Shown in pieces: positions 11,810 to 49,355 of a stretch of DNA of 64,000 nucleotides. The stretch lies in IMG/VR virus record IMGVR_UViG_3300030329_001736, positions 36,093 through 100,092 of that record. One strand, given 5' to 3'. The stretch comes from a virus. The number at the start of each line of letters is the position of its first letter. Position 1 is the first letter of the stretch. The notes beneath the pieces are model-generated. The model was not told the DNA's origin. It saw only the letters and a list, made by a program, of their open reading frames with translations, and did not search any database. A program made the translations under genes and the position numbers.

Positions 11810-13693
11810 ATGTCTTCTACTACTTCCAGATTATCTAAGTTAAATCTTAAACCGGGATTTCACAGAGAATCAACTCAATACTCTGAAGAGGGGCGTTGGT
11901 TTGATGGAGATCGTGTGCGTTTCAGAGAAGGAAAGCCAGAAAATTTAAGAGGCTATAATAAATTTACATTAGATGATAACAGAACACTTGAAGGTATTGG
12001 CAGAGATTTAATAACTTGGTCACGAAATAATTCACAAAAACTTCTTTCTGTAGGAACAGAGAAGAAACTTTATATTGTAGATGGTTCTTTCCCTTATGAT
12101 GTAACACCTATTGTTACTGTAGTTTCTATAGGTAATAGTGGAACACAAGGTAATCTTAGTACTGTATCTGGTCAAAATAGAATTTATGTAAGTATTACAA
12201 ATAATAATGTAAGTGTAGGAGATTTTGTAGAATTTACTTCTGCTTCTACTAATGGATTTAGCCAAGGAACAGACTTTGCTGTTACTGCGTTTGGTGGTCC
12301 TGTTTATGAAGTTGTTAATGTTTCAGGTGTAAATAATTTTAGTGTATCTGTTAACTATTCTTCTAATGCAACACAGACAGGACCGGGACAAGCTACTGCA
12401 CATTTTCTTTTACCTACTGGATCAAATGATAGTATCCAAGGAACTGGATATGGTGCAGGAAACTATCTTGCAGGAACAAATGATCCTTCTGCAAGAGCAT
12501 GGAATGAACCTGCAGCTACGTCTAATATTGTTTTTGCTGCTTCTCAGTGGTCACTAGATACATTTGGTGAAGATTTGTTAGGTGTTAGAAGAGGAAATAA
12601 ATTATGTCATTGGGATGCAGATGCCAGTGTAACGCCAGTAAGAGCTAATATTATTTCTGGAAGTCCTGATCAAATAAATAGTATTGTTGTATCTCCTAAT
12701 GATAGGCATGTTATTGCATTAGGTGCAAATGAATTTGCTACTGGTACTTTTAATCCTATGCTTATTAGATGGGCAGATCAATTAAATTTTAATAACTGGA
12801 CTCCTGCTATTACTAATACAGCAGGAGAACTGGTTGTAGTAGACGGTACAGAAATCATTGCTGGTATTAGAACCAGAAGCTCTATTCTTATTTGGACAGA
12901 TAATGCTTTGTATGGTTTACAATTTGTTGGTCCTCCGTTTACATTTAGTATTCAACAGTTAGGGTCTAATTGTGGACTTATAGGACAACATGGAGCAATA
13001 GCTGTAGACTCTGCCTCTTTCTGGATGAGCAACGATAACTTCTATGTTTTTGATGGAACTGTAAGAAAATTAGATTGTACTGTTAGAAGACATCTATATG
13101 ATAATTTTAATATGACGCAGAAAGATAAAGTTTTTTGTGCTACTAATTCAGAGTTCCACGAAATTATTTGGTTGTATCCTTCAGAAAGTTCTTCTGAACC
13201 TGACTCATATATTATCTATAACTATGAGGAAAATACTTGGGTATATGGGTCTAGTTTCTATACTACTTTTTCTGATGATCATGTATTTGATAATACCATT
13301 ACAACAGGAAGAGTTAGTGCTTCTGATGATACTCGTATATGGAACAATGAACCTGAGAATATTTTTACTGGAGATGGTAAAGCACTAACTTCTTTCTTAG
13401 AATCTGCTGATTTTGATTTGCAAGATGGTGCAGATATAATGTTTGTTAATAGAGTTATCCCTGATCTTACTTTTGGATCAGGTACTAATTTAACTTTTAC
13501 TATTAATTTAAAAGATTATCCTGCTGATTCAACTACGCAAAAAGGACCGTATACTTTAAATTCAGGAATAAAAAAAGTAGATTTAAGAGCTAGAGGAAGA
13601 CAAGCTAATGTTCGTGTCTCTACTTCTGATTTAGGTGCAGAGTGGAGATGGGGTAATGTTAGGGTAGCCTTACAGCCAGATGGTAAACGATAA
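11810..13693 (+). CDS. Tail structural protein (nozzle-type candidate)
   Basis: 627 residues. Starts with LKPGFHRESTQYSEEGRWFDGDRVRFREGKPENLRGY, a conserved opening of a large beta-rich protein found in many marine podoviruses and prophages in the tail block. Repeats of beta-strand pairs (SRNNSQKLLSVGTEKKLYIVDG, RTRSSILIWTDNALYGLQFVG) suggest a propeller-like body, reminiscent of short-tail nozzle proteins such as T7 gp12. The family is consistent; assignment to the nozzle is inference. Its stop overlaps the next start (TAATG). Confidence 0.6.
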   Translation: MSSTTSRLSKLNLKPGFHRESTQYSEEGRWFDGDRVRFREGKPENLRGYNKFTLDDNRTLEGIGRDLITWSRNNSQKLLSVGTEKKLYIVDGSFPYDVTPIVTVVSIGNSGTQGNLSTVSGQNRIYVSITNNNVSVGDFVEFTSASTNGFSQGTDFAVTAFGGPVYEVVNVSGVNNFSVSVNYSSNATQTGPGQATAHFLLPTGSNDSIQGTGYGAGNYLAGTNDPSARAWNEPAATSNIVFAASQWSLDTFGEDLLGVRRGNKLCHWDADASVTPVRANIISGSPDQINSIVVSPNDRHVIALGANEFATGTFNPMLIRWADQLNFNNWTPAITNTAGELVVVDGTEIIAGIRTRSSILIWTDNALYGLQFVGPPFTFSIQQLGSNCGLIGQHGAIAVDSASFWMSNDNFYVFDGTVRKLDCTVRRHLYDNFNMTQKDKVFCATNSEFHEIIWLYPSESSSEPDSYIIYNYEENTWVYGSSFYTTFSDDHVFDNTITTGRVSASDDTRIWNNEPENIFTGDGKALTSFLESADFDLQDGADIMFVNRVIPDLTFGSGTNLTFTINLKDYPADSTTQKGPYTLNSGIKKVDLRARGRQANVRVSTSDLGAEWRWGNVRVALQPDGKR

Positions 13694-40703: not shown

Positions 40704-40780
40704 TGGCGCTCTCGGTAGGACTCGAACCTACAACCTATAGATTAGAAGTCTATTGCTCTATCCGGTTGAGCTACGAGAGC
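40704..40780 (-). tRNA. tRNA-Arg (anticodon UCU)
   Basis: A full cloverleaf reads on the minus strand: acceptor GCTCTCG/CGAGAGC, D-arm GCTC/GAGC, anticodon arm ATAGA-CTTCTAA-TCTAT with anticodon TCT, T-arm GTAGG-TTCGAGT-CCTAC, discriminator G and an encoded CCA. It decodes AGA and AGG, codons used heavily in this AT-rich genome, so it probably supplements the host. Its first base is the last base of the TAG stop of the preceding gene. Confidence 0.95.
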
Positions 40781-41118
40781 TATCTGTTTAACAACCTGTT
40801 AGAGATACTTTCTAATTCCTGCTCTACTCTTGATAACTTTCCTTCAAGGTACTTTACTTCCTCAGTTAATTGTTTTACTTTCTTATACTCATTATATAGT
40901 TGAGCAGTAAGTGTAGATATTTCTTTCTTAGCTAACATTACTTCATAGCTATCATCTTTTACTTCATTACTATCTACTTTTAAATCACCATCGTTGTATA
41001 CTTTATCACCATCTAATATATTTCTTAGTGCTGCTCTAAGTTTAAGAGCATCTATCAATGGTGCTTCAGATGGGGATATGTCCTTTAATATAAATTCTTC
41101 TAGGTCATCTCTTAACAT
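40780..41118 (-). CDS. Coiled-coil hypothetical protein
   Basis: 112 residues from ATG 41118 (MLRDDLEEFILKDIS), 1 base after the previous stop; starts at 41130 or 41160 are possible. The C-terminal half is a heptad coil (EISTLTAQLYNEYKKVKQLTEEVKYLEGKLSRVEQELESI). Ends in a TAG whose G begins the tRNA. Function unknown. Confidence 0.55.
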   Translation of the reverse strand: MLRDDLEEFILKDISPSEAPLIDALKLRAALRNILDGDKVYNDGDLKVDSNEVKDDSYEVMLAKKEISTLTAQLYNEYKKVKQLTEEVKYLEGKLSRVEQELESISNRLLNR

Positions 41119-45361: not shown

Positions 45362-45490
45362 TTATCCTTCTCCCATTACTCGTCTTTTGATTTTTTTACG
45401 AAGCTTCTTGTTGGCCATTCTCTTTCCCCACTTTCGTAGGTGTTTGGCCCACTCCTTAGTGCATTTGACGCCAGCGATAGGCTTTGCCAT
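45362..45490 (-). CDS. 42-residue basic protein
   Basis: ATG 45490 after AAAGGAAACGATC; product MAKPIAGVKCTKEWAKHLRK... continues as GKRMANKKLRKKIKRRVMG. Strongly basic, possibly binding nucleic acid or host polymerase. Tightly packed between neighbours. Confidence 0.6.
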   Translation of the reverse strand: MAKPIAGVKCTKEWAKHLRKWGKRMANKKLRKKIKRRVMGEG

Positions 45491-45502
45491 GATCGTTTCC
45501 TT

Positions 45503-45793
45503 TTAATCGCTGCTAGCTTCGTAGTAATCTTCACAGAAATAATCAAAGAGTTCCGCTGCTTTCTGCGTTCCGAAATCTTCATCGAAGTACTCTTCATACT
45601 TCGGTTTCTCTTTGTTGCGACAGTACCACGCCGCCATCTTGAGCGTATCGCACGCAGCATTGGTAAGACCGCCGTCAGCAGCCCGCCAGTCATCGACCGC
45701 TTCCTTGACATAGCTGAGATACTTAGGCCAGAAGCCTTCTTCCTCCTCGTTAAACTCCCGTGAGAGTTTCTCGATCTCTTCAAAGTCAAACAT
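45503..45793 (-). CDS. Acidic early protein behind palindrome 1
   Basis: 96 residues from ATG 45793 (MFDFEEIEKLSREFNEEEEGFWPKYLSYV), with AAGGAAGGAAAAGCAA before it; a longer frame to 45937 has no such site. Very acidic, as in small phage proteins that mimic DNA or bind host proteins. The palindrome at 45812 lies 18 bases before its start. Function unknown. Confidence 0.6.
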   Translation of the reverse strand: MFDFEEIEKLSREFNEEEEGFWPKYLSYVKEAVDDWRAADGGLTNAACDTLKMAAWYCRNKEKPKYEEYFDEDFGTQKAAELFDYFCEDYYEASSD

Positions 45794-45811
45794 TTGCTTT
45801 TCCTTCCTTGT

Positions 45812-45825
45812 TTTTACTAGTAAAA
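45812..45825. promoter_or_regulatory. Operator-like palindrome 1, TTTTACTAGTAAAA
   Basis: Perfect 14 bp palindrome just upstream of the ribosome binding site of the gene starting at 45793. Identical to palindrome 2 and in the same T...C flanks. Confidence 0.75.
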
Positions 45826-45833
45826 CGATCCCA

Positions 45834-46109
45834 TTAACTAAGGGACCATCGGGCCTTGCGTCCCGTGATCTTATTAATAGATCGGGACTGTGGTATATGT
45901 AAACTGCTACAGCCCAGCCCGTTCCAATCGAAGCCATGAAAATATTCTATAGCATCCGATAACAAAGCGAACGGGTCGGGATTTTCCCTTGTTCTCTTAT
46001 CCGCAACAGAAAAGACACCATTAGCTTCACGCTTAATGGTGCCTACTATTTCTTTGCTGCTATTCGTTACGACAAATAGCGTGCCGTTATTCTTCGCTGT
46101 TACCTTCAT
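45834..46109 (-). CDS. Small early protein behind palindrome 2
   Basis: 91 residues from ATG 46109 (MKVTAKNNGTLFVVTNSSKEIVGTIKREANG), which follows a repeated GGGGAACG. A longer frame to 46193 would start inside the terminator T-tract. Beta N-terminus, helical middle (DPFALLSDAIEYFHGFDW). Function unknown. Preceded by palindrome 2. Confidence 0.6.
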   Translation of the reverse strand: MKVTAKNNGTLFVVTNSSKEIVGTIKREANGVFSVADKRTRENPDPFALLSDAIEYFHGFDWNGLGCSSLHIPQSRSINKITGRKARWSLS

Positions 46110-46129
46110 CGTTCCCCGTTCCCCGTCGT

Positions 46130-46143
46130 TTTTACTAGTAAAA
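46130..46143. promoter_or_regulatory. Operator-like palindrome 2, TTTTACTAGTAAAA
   Basis: Same 14 bp palindrome as at 45812, 20 bases before the ATG at 46109, between a terminator T-tract and the ribosome binding site. Confidence 0.75.
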
Positions 46144-46180
46144 CACAAAAAAAAATAAAAAAAAAATAACAAAAGGGAAA

Positions 46181-46208
46181 AGGGACGCGACACTAAATGC
46201 CGCGCCCT
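46181..46208 (-). terminator. Intrinsic terminator after the 225-residue gene
   Basis: On the minus strand: AGGGCGCGGCA, short loop, TGTCGCGTCCCT (stem with one bulge/mismatch), then TTTTCCCTTTTG and long T-runs down to 46145. It separates the 225-residue gene from the next, so that gene probably has its own promoter near palindrome 2. Confidence 0.65.
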
Positions 46209-46217
46209 ATTTCTAGT

Positions 46218-46895
46218 CTATTTCGCTTGGCTTTCTGCTATCTTGTGCATTTCATTTAGTTGATCATATTGGCGCTTTGCTTCCGCGAGGCACGCTTTCA
46301 ATTGTGGCGGCGTTAGCTTGCCTATGTTCTCATTGATAGCCTTTGCCGTGGCTTTTTGAGGCTTTTCGATACGCTCAACGGGTCGGACGCTGCCTTCTTT
46401 TATTTGTTTATAACGCTTGACGATAGTCTTGTCGTGCTTGTTTTTGCTACTGTAGAGGCGCGGAAGCGAACCATCCGCTGCCCAAACCTTGCTGATTTTG
46501 GACATGACCTGACCAAACGTGGCTGGTTTTTTCTCTGTACCTTCGATTTTGATTTCCTTGCCCGACGCCATATGCGTCACTAGCGGCCAGTTGAAGGATA
46601 GGCAAATATCCATGTTTAACGTGGCTGGGTCGCCACCAGCCGCAACGTGGTCGAAGAATTTGGCGGCGATTGCGTTGCAGATACCACGCTCATTCTCTCG
46701 AATAATTTTTTTATCTGCCGCAAGGTCGCGGCTTTCTTCAACAAGTGACGCAACGGCGTTTCTCAAATCATCCGGCAACGGGCGCGCCTGATCCAGCGCG
46801 GAACCAGAAAGCCACCGGGCATGGGCCGCTGCGCTTTCGGTGTCCTGTTCTTCTACCGCAATCTTAGCGGCAATAGCTTCGTTTGGTTTCGGCAT
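46218..46895 (-). CDS. Hypothetical early protein behind palindromes 3 and 4
   Basis: 225 residues from ATG 46895 (MPKPNEAIAAKIAVEEQ), with GAAAGGGTTGAAA before it. Helical and Ala/Lys-rich; central HMASGKEIKIEGTEKKPATFGQVMSKISKVW and a C-terminal coil (LTPPQLKACLAEAKRQYDQLNEMHKIAESQ). Noticeably GC-richer than most of the genome. First sizeable gene leftward from the control region, so very early. I do not recognise it. Confidence 0.65.
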   Translation of the reverse strand: MPKPNEAIAAKIAVEEQDTESAAAHARWLSGSALDQARPLPDDLRNAVASLVEESRDLAADKKIIRENERGICNAIAAKFFDHVAAGGDPATLNMDICLSFNWPLVTHMASGKEIKIEGTEKKPATFGQVMSKISKVWAADGSLPRLYSSKNKHDKTIVKRYKQIKEGSVRPVERIEKPQKATAKAINENIGKLTPPQLKACLAEAKRQYDQLNEMHKIAESQAK

Positions 46896-46910
46896 TTTCA
46901 ACCCTTTCGC

Positions 46911-46924
46911 TTTTACTCGTAAAA
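46911..46924. promoter_or_regulatory. Operator-like palindrome 3, TTTTACTCGTAAAA
   Basis: Same arms TTTTAC/GTAAAA with TC centre; 15 bases before the ATG at 46895, overlapping the approach to its ribosome binding site. Confidence 0.7.
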
Positions 46925-47000
46925 CCGGCCAAAATGGCTCGGCGGAACCGGTTAGTTCCAACCAATCAAATGGGAACGATTGCCCTAATTTTCAAGGGCT

Positions 47001-47014
47001 TTTTACCGGTAAAA
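47001..47014. promoter_or_regulatory. Operator-like palindrome 4, TTTTACCGGTAAAA
   Basis: Perfect palindrome with CG centre, 76 bases beyond palindrome 3. A short hairpin (GCCCT/AGGGC) lies between them at 46982-46999. Confidence 0.7.
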
Positions 47015-47028
47015 GAATATTTATTTTT

Positions 47029-47050
47029 TTTAATCATTCGGACGATTAAA
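47029..47050. promoter_or_regulatory. Second operator-like inverted repeat, TTTAATC-N8-GATTAAA
   Basis: Perfect 7 bp arms (47029-47035, 47044-47050) spaced so their centres are 15 bases apart, close to a helical turn and a half; a likely dimeric protein site next to palindrome 4. Confidence 0.5.
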
Positions 47051-47154
47051 CTTGACATACGGGGTTACCTATGAATGGCGCAAACGCTAGCGATAGGCAT
47101 TTTCAATTGGCAATATAAGACGCTAGCTTGCTAATAATTGCCTTGCTCATTATA
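47051..47154. other. Non-coding control DNA with CGCTAGC repeats
   Basis: No gene is seen. CGCTAGCG (47085-47092) and CGCTAGC (47121-47127) recur, and a TTGACA at 47052 has no fitting -10 box. Probably part of the leftward promoter/origin region. Confidence 0.4.
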
Positions 47155-47295
47155 TCACCATGAACTAATTAGCACCCTAATAGTAACACTCGTTACTAAA
47201 TAGACCAGCCCCCACCCCCACCCAAAAAATCCCCCCACTGTGTAGATATCATATATTATGGGTGACATATATAGACCAAAAATAAAAAGGAACAT
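47155..47295 (-). CDS. Possible 46-residue membrane protein
   Basis: ATG 47295 follows AAAGGGGGCATTGTTTA. Product MFLFIFGLYMSPIIYDIYTV... is hydrophobic with GGFFGWGWG encoded by the G-rich tract. Could be the first leftward gene, or chance coding across a structured DNA element. Confidence 0.3.
   Translation of the reverse strand: MFLFIFGLYMSPIIYDIYTVGGFFGWGWGLVYLVTSVTIRVLISSW
47209..47236 (-). other. G-quadruplex motif
   Basis: Plus strand runs C5-A-C5-A-C3-A6T-C6; the minus strand thus has four G-runs of 3 or more with loops of 7, 1 and 1 bases. It stands out in very AT-rich DNA. Confidence 0.7.
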
Positions 47296-47387
47296 TAAAC
47301 AATGCCCCCTTTGTTTTATTTCAACAATTCTATCCAAAAATAATAACAAAAAATAACTCGGCTTGCTACACATTCAGCCTATCTAAG

Positions 47388-47469
47388 TTATATTCTTAAT
47401 TATATTTATTTATAATATTAATATATAACTAAGAATATAATCTTAATATATCTTATATAGTACTATATA
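47388..47469. other. AT-rich inverted-repeat region, candidate replication origin
   Basis: TTATATTCTTA (47388-47398) and TAAGAATATAA (47430-47440) are perfect inverted 11-mers; TATATAGTACTATATA (47454-47469) is a perfect 16 bp palindrome. The stretch 47388-47470 is almost pure A/T. Suits DNA unwinding between divergent transcription units; origin role is inferred. Confidence 0.4.
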
Positions 47470-47536
47470 GTATAGGGTAACACAGATTCTAAAATAAGCA
47501 AGGGATATTTTCTTTCTTTCTTCTAAAGATTAGGGG

Positions 47537-47565
47537 TTGCAAAAATATAAGATAAATAGTAAAAT
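47537..47565 (+). promoter_or_regulatory. Sigma-70-like promoter for the rightward head genes
   Basis: TTGCAA (47537-47542), 17-base spacer, TAAAAT (47560-47565). Start expected near 47572, 50 bases before the cysteine-rich gene. It would serve the mini-gene, terL and the head operon. Confidence 0.6.
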
Positions 47566-47622
47566 ACATTTTATTCCTGTAAGCTAAGAAAGCGAACTCA
47601 AATCATCATAAGGAAGGAACTT

Positions 47623-47793
47623 ATGTCTTCACCAAAATATAAAGACGAGTGTCCGTGTGAATGTGAAGATTGCGACTGTGATTGTGATCAATGTGACTGT
47701 AACAAGGCTACCCAACAACAAGAAGAAAAAGAAGTAGTAAACCCAGACTTTATGGCTCACTACTCTAAAAAGGATGAACCAGTGTGGAACTAG
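47623..47793 (+). CDS. Cysteine-rich metallothionein-like mini-protein
   Basis: 56 residues, with AAGGAAGGAACTT before the ATG. Eight cysteines lie between residues 10 and 26 in pattern CxCxCxxCxCxCxxCxC (CPCECEDCDCDCDQCDC), surrounded by Asp and Glu, then a Gln/Glu-rich linker and PDFMAHYSKKDEPVWN. The CxC/CxxC density is that of metal-binding metallothioneins, though no known family is recognised. The terL GTG start lies in its last codons, so translation is coupled. It could bind zinc or another metal, or be a redox-sensitive regulator. First gene of the rightward unit. Confidence 0.7.
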   Translation: MSSPKYKDECPCECEDCDCDCDQCDCNKATQQQEEKEVVNPDFMAHYSKKDEPVWN

Positions 47794-49355
47794 ATTCCTT
47801 ACCATCAGATAACAATGAAGAAGATATAACATATAATGTTCTTCTAAATATAAATAACAATCTTAAAGATATAGTAAACAAACAATGTCAGGATGACTTT
47901 CTTACTTTTGTGAGGGCTATGGCACCTACTCTTGTTTCTGATTGGAAGATGGGTAGGCACATAGAACTAATATCTGATAAGCTACAACAGGTAGTAGAAG
48001 GAAAGATCAAAAGGCTTATGGTCTTTCTTCCTCCTCGTTCGTCCAAGTCTGTTATCTGTTCTAAGTTGTTTCCTGCGTGGTACATAGGCAAGAACCCTAA
48101 TCACGAAATCTTGACTGTATCTCACTCTGATCAACTATCTAGTGACTTCGGTAGATCAGTAAGAGACATAGTAAACCAAGAGAAGTTTGCTGATATGTTT
48201 CCCGGTGTACTTCTACGTCAAGATGTCAGGGCAGCAGGTAAATGGAAAACGAACCTAAATGGTTCTTACTATGCTGCAGGTGTAAGATCACAGATTGCTG
48301 GACGAGGCGCACACATGGCTATCCTTGATGATGTCATGTCAGAAGAAGATAGTTTCTCTGATGCAGGTAGAAGATACATCAAGGAATGGTATCCGTCAGG
48401 TCTGAGAACTCGTATCATGCCTAACGGATCAATAATAATTATTAATACCAGATATCATTATGATGATCTATGTGGCTGGCTACTCAAGCAGCAGGATGAG
48501 TTCGACATAGAAACGAAGATGAGATGGAATGTAATCAGCATACCTGCATGGCTAGATGAGAAGGCAAGCAAGCTATTAGGCTTAGAGGAAGGAACAAGTT
48601 ACTTTCCTGAATGGAAGGATGATGAGACACTACGAATAGACGAAGCAGAGATCAAAGCTACCAATGGAGCTAAGTATTGGGAAAGTCTGTACATGCAGAA
48701 CCCAACTCCAGATGAAGGAAGCTTAATCAAAAAGAACTGGATTAACAAATGGGAATACCAAGAACCTCCTCATTGTGATTTTATATTACAGACTTATGAC
48801 ACTGCTTTCTCTACAAAAACAACAGCAGACTTTTCTGTTATTCAAACTTGGGGTGTCTTTCATTTCTTTGATGACAGAGCAGATGGAGAAGAGGTAGCAG
48901 CAAGTAATCTTATATTGTTAGGTCAAGTAAGAGGAAGATATGAATACCCAGACCTCAGACGGATAGCCCAGCAAGAATACCAGAAGCACAGACCAGACAT
49001 ATGCTTAGTAGAAAAGAAAGCCAGTGGTCAGTCTCTCATACAAGATATGCGACGAAGCGGGCTACCAGTACTGGAGTACATGCCAGACAAAGATAAGATA
49101 TCAAGGGTTTTCTCTGCTTCTCCTTTGCTTGAGGCAGGACGAGTATGGATACCAAAGAGTAAGGCTTGGGCTAATGAGCTATACGAAGAAGCTATCTTGT
49201 TTCCTTACGGAAGGCACGACGATCAGGTAGATGCGATGGTCATGGCTATCCATTACGTCAAGGATAGTTGGAGGATGGAACATCCAGATGATCCTGATTG
49301 GGAAGATGACATAAATCCAAGAAAACAAAAGAGAGTTGCATACTGGAGGGTTTAG
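47784..49355 (+). CDS. terL: Terminase large subunit
   Basis: 523 residues from GTG 47784, 9 bases after AAGGA and overlapping the previous stop by 10 bases. ATPase: Walker A-like PPRSSKSV (83-90), Walker B AILDDVMSEEDS (179 on). Nuclease: LQTYDTAFSTKTTADFS, CLVEKKASGQSL, and YGRHDDQVDAM near the C-terminus. It is the packaging motor that cuts and pumps DNA through the portal. Its partner terS is 23 kb away on the other strand. Confidence 0.95.
   Translation: MELDSLPSDNNEEDITYNVLLNINNNLKDIVNKQCQDDFLTFVRAMAPTLVSDWKMGRHIELISDKLQQVVEGKIKRLMVFLPPRSSKSVICSKLFPAWYIGKNPNHEILTVSHSDQLSSDFGRSVRDIVNQEKFADMFPGVLLRQDVRAAGKWKTNLNGSYYAAGVRSQIAGRGAHMAILDDVMSEEDSFSDAGRRYIKEWYPSGLRTRIMPNGSIIIINTRYHYDDLCGWLLKQQDEFDIETKMRWNVISIPAWLDEKASKLLGLEEGTSYFPEWKDDETLRIDEAEIKATNGAKYWESLYMQNPTPDEGSLIKKNWINKWEYQEPPHCDFILQTYDTAFSTKTTADFSVIQTWGVFHFFDDRADGEEVAASNLILLGQVRGRYEYPDLRRIAQQEYQKHRPDICLVEKKASGQSLIQDMRRSGLPVLEYMPDKDKISRVFSASPLLEAGRVWIPKSKAWANELYEEAILFPYGRHDDQVDAMVMAIHYVKDSWRMEHPDDPDWEDDINPRKQKRVAYWRV

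Follow-up and report, generated by a model that had tools for sequence, protein, structure and literature searches.

Four perfect copies of a 14-bp palindrome, TTTTACNNGTAAAA, stand at the first gene junctions of a leftward operon in the 64,000-nucleotide stretch of viral DNA analysed here (the window), and palindromes of other sequence take their place at comparable junctions in several related phages. We favour, with moderate confidence, a reading in which a dimeric phage regulator, probably the product of a swapped cassette, recognises these palindromes as operators in double-stranded DNA and would roadblock the junctions in a stoperator-like manner. The sites and the genes around them are listed below; class A denotes TTTTAC-N2-GTAAAA, class B CTACAC-N2-GTGTAG and class C TTACA-N-TGTAA.

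45812..45825, no strand assigned: class A copy 1, TTTTAC-TA-GTAAAA, exact pattern match
46130..46143, no strand assigned: class A copy 2, TTTTAC-TA-GTAAAA, exact pattern match
46911..46924, no strand assigned: class A copy 3, TTTTACTCGTAAAA on the plus strand (centre TC; GA on the gene strand), exact pattern match
47001..47014, no strand assigned: class A copy 4, TTTTAC-CG-GTAAAA, exact pattern match
46218..46895, minus strand: A1, 225 aa, first cassette gene, candidate regulator from its co-occurrence with class A sites
45834..46109, minus strand: A2, 91 aa, second gene, an open reading frame with homologues
45503..45793, minus strand: A3, 96 aa, acidic, third gene, an open reading frame
46183..46207, minus strand: terminator-like hairpin between A1 and copy 2, pattern match only (8 such patterns in the region against 2.6 expected)

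The four palindromes reported in the initial annotation, at 45812, 46130, 46911 and 47001, are all exact; two share the centre TA and the others have TC and CG. Its placing of the first three 15-20 nt before start codons agrees with our measurements: on the minus strand, copies 1, 2 and 3 precede the ATGs at 45793, 46109 and 46895 by 18, 20 and 15 nt, and a purine-rich sequence resembling a Shine-Dalgarno separates each site from its ATG. Copy 1 lies in the 40-bp A2-A3 junction, 8 bp past the A2 stop, and copy 4 shares the leader of copy 3, 76 bp upstream of it. The four exact matches, all within 45812-47014, compare with 0.01 expected in the window (sd 0.10), and four or more copies were reached in 0 of 100 dinucleotide-preserving shuffles. 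The annotation had also seen no further copy in the window, which is true and extends to the entire 100,092-base record, where a reversed control pattern likewise gave no match. Together, the shuffles and the whole-record scan rule out chance or an AT-rich artefact as the origin of the copies. With two mismatches tolerated, 11 sites were found against 6.9 expected, which is near chance, so the signal is confined to near-exact copies.

A1, A2 and A3 open a leftward block that holds a helicase-primase, DNA polymerase, ThyX, SSB, a Cas4-like exonuclease and ribonucleotide reductase, and it is from this content that we infer the genes to be early. The block also contains a tRNA-Arg gene (anticodon TCT) at window positions 40704-40780. 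A1 itself has no Pfam or PHROG match.

Establishing which phage carries the sites required a closer look at the record, which we call G000 (G numbers are records, L numbers loci). Pieces of at least 150 bases from 28 relative records fall within ~42.7-97.9 kb of G000 in 27 cases. The 28th, G001, additionally matches G000 at 97-374, at 40.7-41.6 kb and up to 100.06 kb; its order, G000 83.3-98.7 kb and then 44.4-51.1 kb, joins both ends of the ~42.7-97.9 kb part. The first ~40.7 kb of G000 holds a T7-type RNA polymerase, a T7-type terminase, a nozzle protein and an integrase match. Given these alignment extents and the confinement of T7-type genes to the first ~40.7 kb, the record is probably a chimera of a T7-like phage and the phage of this finding, the latter probably measuring roughly 55-60 kb. 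The first part takes in the window from 1 to ~5 kb, and tail-fibre-like repeats at 40749-40992 and 99846-100092 of the record, 81% identical, lie at the junction of the two parts. In its terminase, the palindrome-bearing phage shares 38-39% identity with Pelagibacter phages HTVC023P and HTVC027P; the nearest terminases of named phages, four in number, lie at this level. Searches for T7-type RNA polymerase (PF00940) matched 0 of 13 relatives, a weak negative although the same model matched in G000. Phage integrase (PF00589), in a search that could miss a degenerate relative, was found only in the T7-like half, and neither in this phage's part of G000 nor in 11 relatives. Resolvase (PF00239) matched 0 of 12 records, and the CI/Cro-type HTH_3 domain (PF01381) 0 of 15, several of which are fragments, with controls detected in 14 of 14.

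Using the terminase that adjoins the sites as a query, we collected 45 loci. The expectation that the motif would be conserved at these places in relatives was borne out in part: a palindrome stands at comparable junctions in several of them, with letters that depend on the lineage, and many relatives have none. Class A occurs once in L006 and three times each in L017, L039 and L040, which share an identical A1 and are counted as one lineage; L167, found later by pattern, has two class A sites and a 72% identical A1 piece (78 aa). Class B sites (ACTACAC..GTGTAGT and variants) are present in L007, L020, L103, L104, L106 and G007, ATTTCAC..GTGAAAT in L026, and AGTTTAC..GTAAACT in L005 and L186. 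Class C is found four times in G008 (0.0 expected), twice in G006 (0.22 expected) and once in L012, and in each of these three one site falls within the opening codons of C1 rather than at a junction; TTACANTGTAA also gives single matches in G000, G017, G019, G022, G023 and G024. Class B sites may stand in tandem: three at 22-bp steps directly before a gene in L104, three at the same spacing in L020, whose contig ends short of the gene, and two 28 bp apart in L007. The 87-aa product of the cassette gene behind the L007 pair (322-585) matches the ribosomal L7/L12 C-terminal domain (PF00542, E 2.5e-7, above cut-off).

Site by site, the palindrome identical to copy 1 precedes A3 of L186 (A3 86% identical; L186 was fetched by exact pattern), and the place equivalent to copy 2 is occupied in L017 and L167, with AGTTTACCAGTAAACT in the orthologous place of L186. 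Copy 3 has a site at the aligned place in L006, and one also stands before L017 A1; the counterparts of copy 4 in L005 and L006 are degenerate only. Across the window and L005-L049, an AC-core palindrome with arms of at least 6 is present in 15 of 46 sequences and absent from 31; many of the 46 extend only a short way beyond the terminase on its upstream side. Among the 15, four (L035-L038) carry a different palindrome family, in repeated flanks, and L008, L022, L024, L027, L032 and L044 have no AC-core palindrome in at least 1.9 kb of upstream DNA. The pattern is not universal in the phage group.

A scan of viral contigs for TTTTACTAGTAAAA-N10-24-ATG returned 107 stretches. Among 108 new loci, at least two class A sites were found in L118, L210, L167 and L176. 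L118 and L210 are contigs of L039 and L017, L167 is new and carries A1 and A2 homologues, and L176 has its class A sites 5.9 kb apart, with neither A1 nor A2; in the other loci the motif is single and probably due to chance. L167 and L186 came from this exact-pattern scan and their TTTTACTAGTAAAA identity is partly by construction, which does not apply to the AGTTTACCAGTAAACT site of L186. Other repeated palindromes were seen in the same loci. The AATGA-N3-TCATT family lies before the first gene, in five copies in L104 (3389-3510), in three in L103 (1687-1805) and, as GAATGATTCTCATTC, twice each in L010, L012 and L014; it could represent operators or origin iterons. A third, AGGTCAATAGTNCTGACCT, occurs as two copies 27 bp apart in L012 (732-777) and L014 (4267-4312), and singly in L011 (3851) and L020 (1222).

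The sequence of the sites tends to go with different first-gene families. We queried 39 entries, two of them the same contig, by tblastn with A1, B1, C1 and D1. Homologues of A1 were found only in G000, G002, G009, G026 and G027, exactly the five entries of the 39 with class A sites; because G009, G026 and G027 share one A1, these represent three lineages. B1 was found in nine entries, corresponding to eight contigs, with exact class B sites in L007, L020, L103, L104 and L106 and only class B variants in L018, L108 and L026 (L103, L104, L106 and L108 had been fetched with a B1 query). All three C1 entries have class C, L012 having just the site inside C1. Class B junction sites also occur without B1: three, one of them mismatched, in G007, where the first gene is D1, and one each in G026 and G008. 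None of the four queries matched another of these families among the 39 entries, and the A1 and B1 profiles show no homology (hhalign probability 1.0%). A1, B1 and C1 are thus candidate binding proteins, by co-occurrence.

Orthologous genes carry different site classes in different phages. The site before A2 is class A in G000, G009, G026, G027 and L167, GTTTAC..GTAAAC in L186 and class C in G008 and G006 (A2 homology between L017 and L014: BLASTP E 3e-11, a single comparison). Zn61, a 61-aa Cys-rich protein, has class B before it in G007, G026 and L106, class C in G008 and no site in G009. In G007 and L106, GP88-family genes stand behind a class B site with one mismatch; the site is class C in G008 and missing in G026. 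The G007 and G008 proteins are homologous (E 4e-10), and each scores above the PF17338 cut-off. The start of a gene for a 54-aa protein is accompanied in G008 by an 18-bp block containing a class B site; L106 has this block with 6 additional bases, and G007, G009 and G026 lack it. L005 has a terminase 99% identical, yet a different first gene, under a GTTTAC..GTAAAC site.

The orthologous A2 sites of the window (TTTTAC..GTAAAA) and of L186 (GTTTAC..GTAAAC) differ in both arms, by matched changes that keep the dyad symmetry. This is a single orthologous case, the remaining comparisons being between classes, and L186 and L005 were recovered from one sample and, by their contig names, may be a single population. 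Among 45 collected sites, symmetry holds in 43-45 at arm positions -5 to -1 and in 39 at position -6; the search patterns fix most arm letters, so these counts are not independent evidence. The centre was left free by all patterns. It is pyrimidine-purine (TA, CA, TG or CG) in 41 of 42 sites, which are not independent of one another, and GA in one, compared with 170 of 497 AC..GT places in the same loci, sites included. Between L017 and L167 (chosen by exact pattern) both sites are identical, and the intervening 282 bp are 74.5% identical.

Searches for the identity of A1 and B1 gave little. Neither had a match in the phages collection; B1 had no relative among 44 pattern stretches in bacterial genomes, and A1 had four among 59 stretches of viral contigs, none on a new contig. 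The best PDB sequence relatives had E values of 0.33 for A1 and 0.097 for B1. The predicted structure of A1 (pLDDT 41.6) was too poor for use. That of B1 (pLDDT 75.5) gave a best Foldseek PDB E of 0.39 and a best VIA-align Z of 3.7; its best viral match was the uncharacterised phage protein A0A6J5P665 (E 9.7e-4), and two DUF3102 proteins matched at E 0.45 and 1.4, a likeness of the predicted fold that we treat as a weak lead. A literature search, mostly of papers outside subscription, returned no description of these sites, and the motif strings gave unrelated matches only.

In the model we propose, the palindromes serve as operators where the first genes of the leftward early operon meet, and the exchangeable cassette itself most likely supplies their regulator (A1 in this phage, B1 or C1 in relatives). 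After its synthesis, this protein would bind the junctions and throttle transcription of the early cassette genes, acting as a roadblock between genes, and cassette and operator sequence would be swapped together between lineages. Many junctions leave little room for a separate promoter. In L017 and L167 (TTT TAC TAG), L106 and G007 the sites overlap the preceding stop codon with the next start 6-16 nt on, hence the little room. L007 has a TTGACA/TATAAT pair upstream of B1, and its site follows the second hexamer at a distance of ~35 nt. The initial annotation had offered an operator family for a dimeric regulator or a repeated promoter/translation element; lineage specificity, class switching, matched arms and centres make the former the better reading, with the latter a less likely alternative. 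Its suggested partners are not supported. The HTH_17 protein (43327), whose match is below its Pfam cut-off, is found only in G000 among the 39 entries; it was not found in G009, although that record has class A sites and the homologous early block is covered there. The other suggested partner, the HTH_39 protein (32891), is present in G000, G006, G009, G012 and G021, of which G006, G012 and G021 have no class A sites. A1 (46218-46895) is by co-occurrence the better candidate. Several points count against operators: the poor A1 model, the missing homology between A1 and B1, the class B sites without B1, the orthologues without any site (Zn61 in G009, GP88 in G026) and the class C site inside the C1 start, one per C1 genome. 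The near-constant distance to the Shine-Dalgarno sequence, which is not required of a roadblock, also counts against the operator reading, as do the strong hairpins at some class B sites, the TATAAT beside one class B site in L103 and the many relatives that lack all of these classes.

The position just before the Shine-Dalgarno sequence would suit an RNA element, a hairpin serving for binding, processing or termination, an explanation we regard as unlikely. Long hairpins with the palindrome at their tip do form at the B1-B2 junctions of L104, L103, L020 and L007 (a degenerate site) and before a gene in G007, the five folds having z-scores of -7.23, -7.56, -6.35, -6.96 and -4.55. However, eight class A sites scored between -1.33 and 0.40, mostly with no self-pairing of the palindrome, three other class B junction sites between -0.57 and 0.18, and one class C site 1.45; moreover, a pyrimidine-purine centre fits DNA deformation better than a loop. 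As strong folds appear at some class B sites only, a hairpin role is possible there and is not a common feature. The G007 hairpin, tipped by a class B palindrome at 11868 just before a putative MazG-type gene, has counterparts at G009 21226 and G012 near 47200, and is kept in three lineages.

Alternatively, the palindrome might be part of a compact promoter, recognised by a phage initiation factor or activator that recruits host RNA polymerase, with the classes reflecting changed factor specificities. The terminator-like hairpin between A1 and copy 2 would need a new start before A2, the class A site-to-ATG distance of ~12-20 nt suits short leaders, and a TATAAT lies 3 nt upstream of one class B site in L103. 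Nonetheless, sigma-70-like matches in 45400-47800 number 5 against 4.1 expected, with none at the class A sites, the stop-codon-overlapping junctions leave little room, and the L007 site is downstream of a good promoter-like pair; with a T7-type RNA polymerase also missing from the 13 relatives searched, we consider such a promoter quite unlikely. A promoter for a T7-type RNA polymerase itself was rejected, as PF00940 sits in the other half of the probably chimeric record and, in the weak negative given above, matched none of 13 relatives. It is more improbable still that the sites are cassette linkers, short conserved gene-border sequences that aid exchange between phages and have no regulatory role. 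Exchange is evident from L005, with its near-identical terminase and other first gene, and from the 18-bp class B block present in some phages and missing in others. Yet 14 bp is short for homologous exchange, the matched arm changes, 22-bp tandem arrays and constrained centre are unexpected of a linker, and the recombinase searches were empty (PF00239 in all 12 records, PF00589 in this phage's part and 11 relatives). Site-specific recombination sites were discarded on the same PF00239 result.

If the operator reading is true, exchangeable operator classes at orthologous junctions would extend multi-site repressor logic to apparently lytic marine phages, whose group has no recognised lysogeny genes. 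The reading would further draw attention to the uncharacterised regulator families A1, B1 and C1, and would provide a simple sequence handle for predicting mutual interference between phages. More tentatively, and with doubt prevailing, phages without a recognised integrase or CI-type repressor may show an immunity-like specificity in lytic growth: A1, B1 or C1, first in the early operon, would shut down its own early genes through private junction palindromes and silence a same-class co-infector, and swaps would yield 'heteroimmune' phages up to 99% identical in their terminase.

Multi-site repressor systems are a feature of temperate phages. In lambda, dyad operators occur in tandem copies, and regulator and operator are exchanged together between relatives. 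The sites described here are likewise dyads, and the class B tandem copies lie about two helical turns apart; they differ in being spread over several gene junctions, where lambda has a single divergent promoter pair, and HTH_3 was found in none of the 15 records searched, several of them fragments. A short repeated element near several phage genes is also described for the Bacillus prophage SPbeta, where computational work recognised the 15-bp SPBRE motif of promoter regions ahead of its master repressor, MrpR, a tyrosine-recombinase-like protein that binds it (PMC10516654). Here, a PF00589 match is confined to the T7-like half of the record and missing from 11 relatives, where a degenerate relative could escape the search. 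The closest comparison is with the stoperators of cluster A mycobacteriophages (L5, Bxb1, TipsytheTRex), which are described as repressor sites in short intergenic spaces with a proposed elongation halt, differing between related phages along with the repressor (PMC9283540, PMC6550527). Our sites share the short intergenic setting, as at the 40-bp junction of copy 1 and the stop-codon overlaps. Stoperators, however, are asymmetric 13-mers that number more than 20 per genome and point in the direction of transcription, and a repressor with an N-terminal HTH binds them as a monomer; the whole record here has four perfect 14-bp dyads in one 1.2-kb stretch. The candidate A1 has neither a domain match nor a confident model. 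With both the asymmetry and the large number missing, we do not class the palindromes as stoperators, despite the stoperator-like working that we propose for them as operators.
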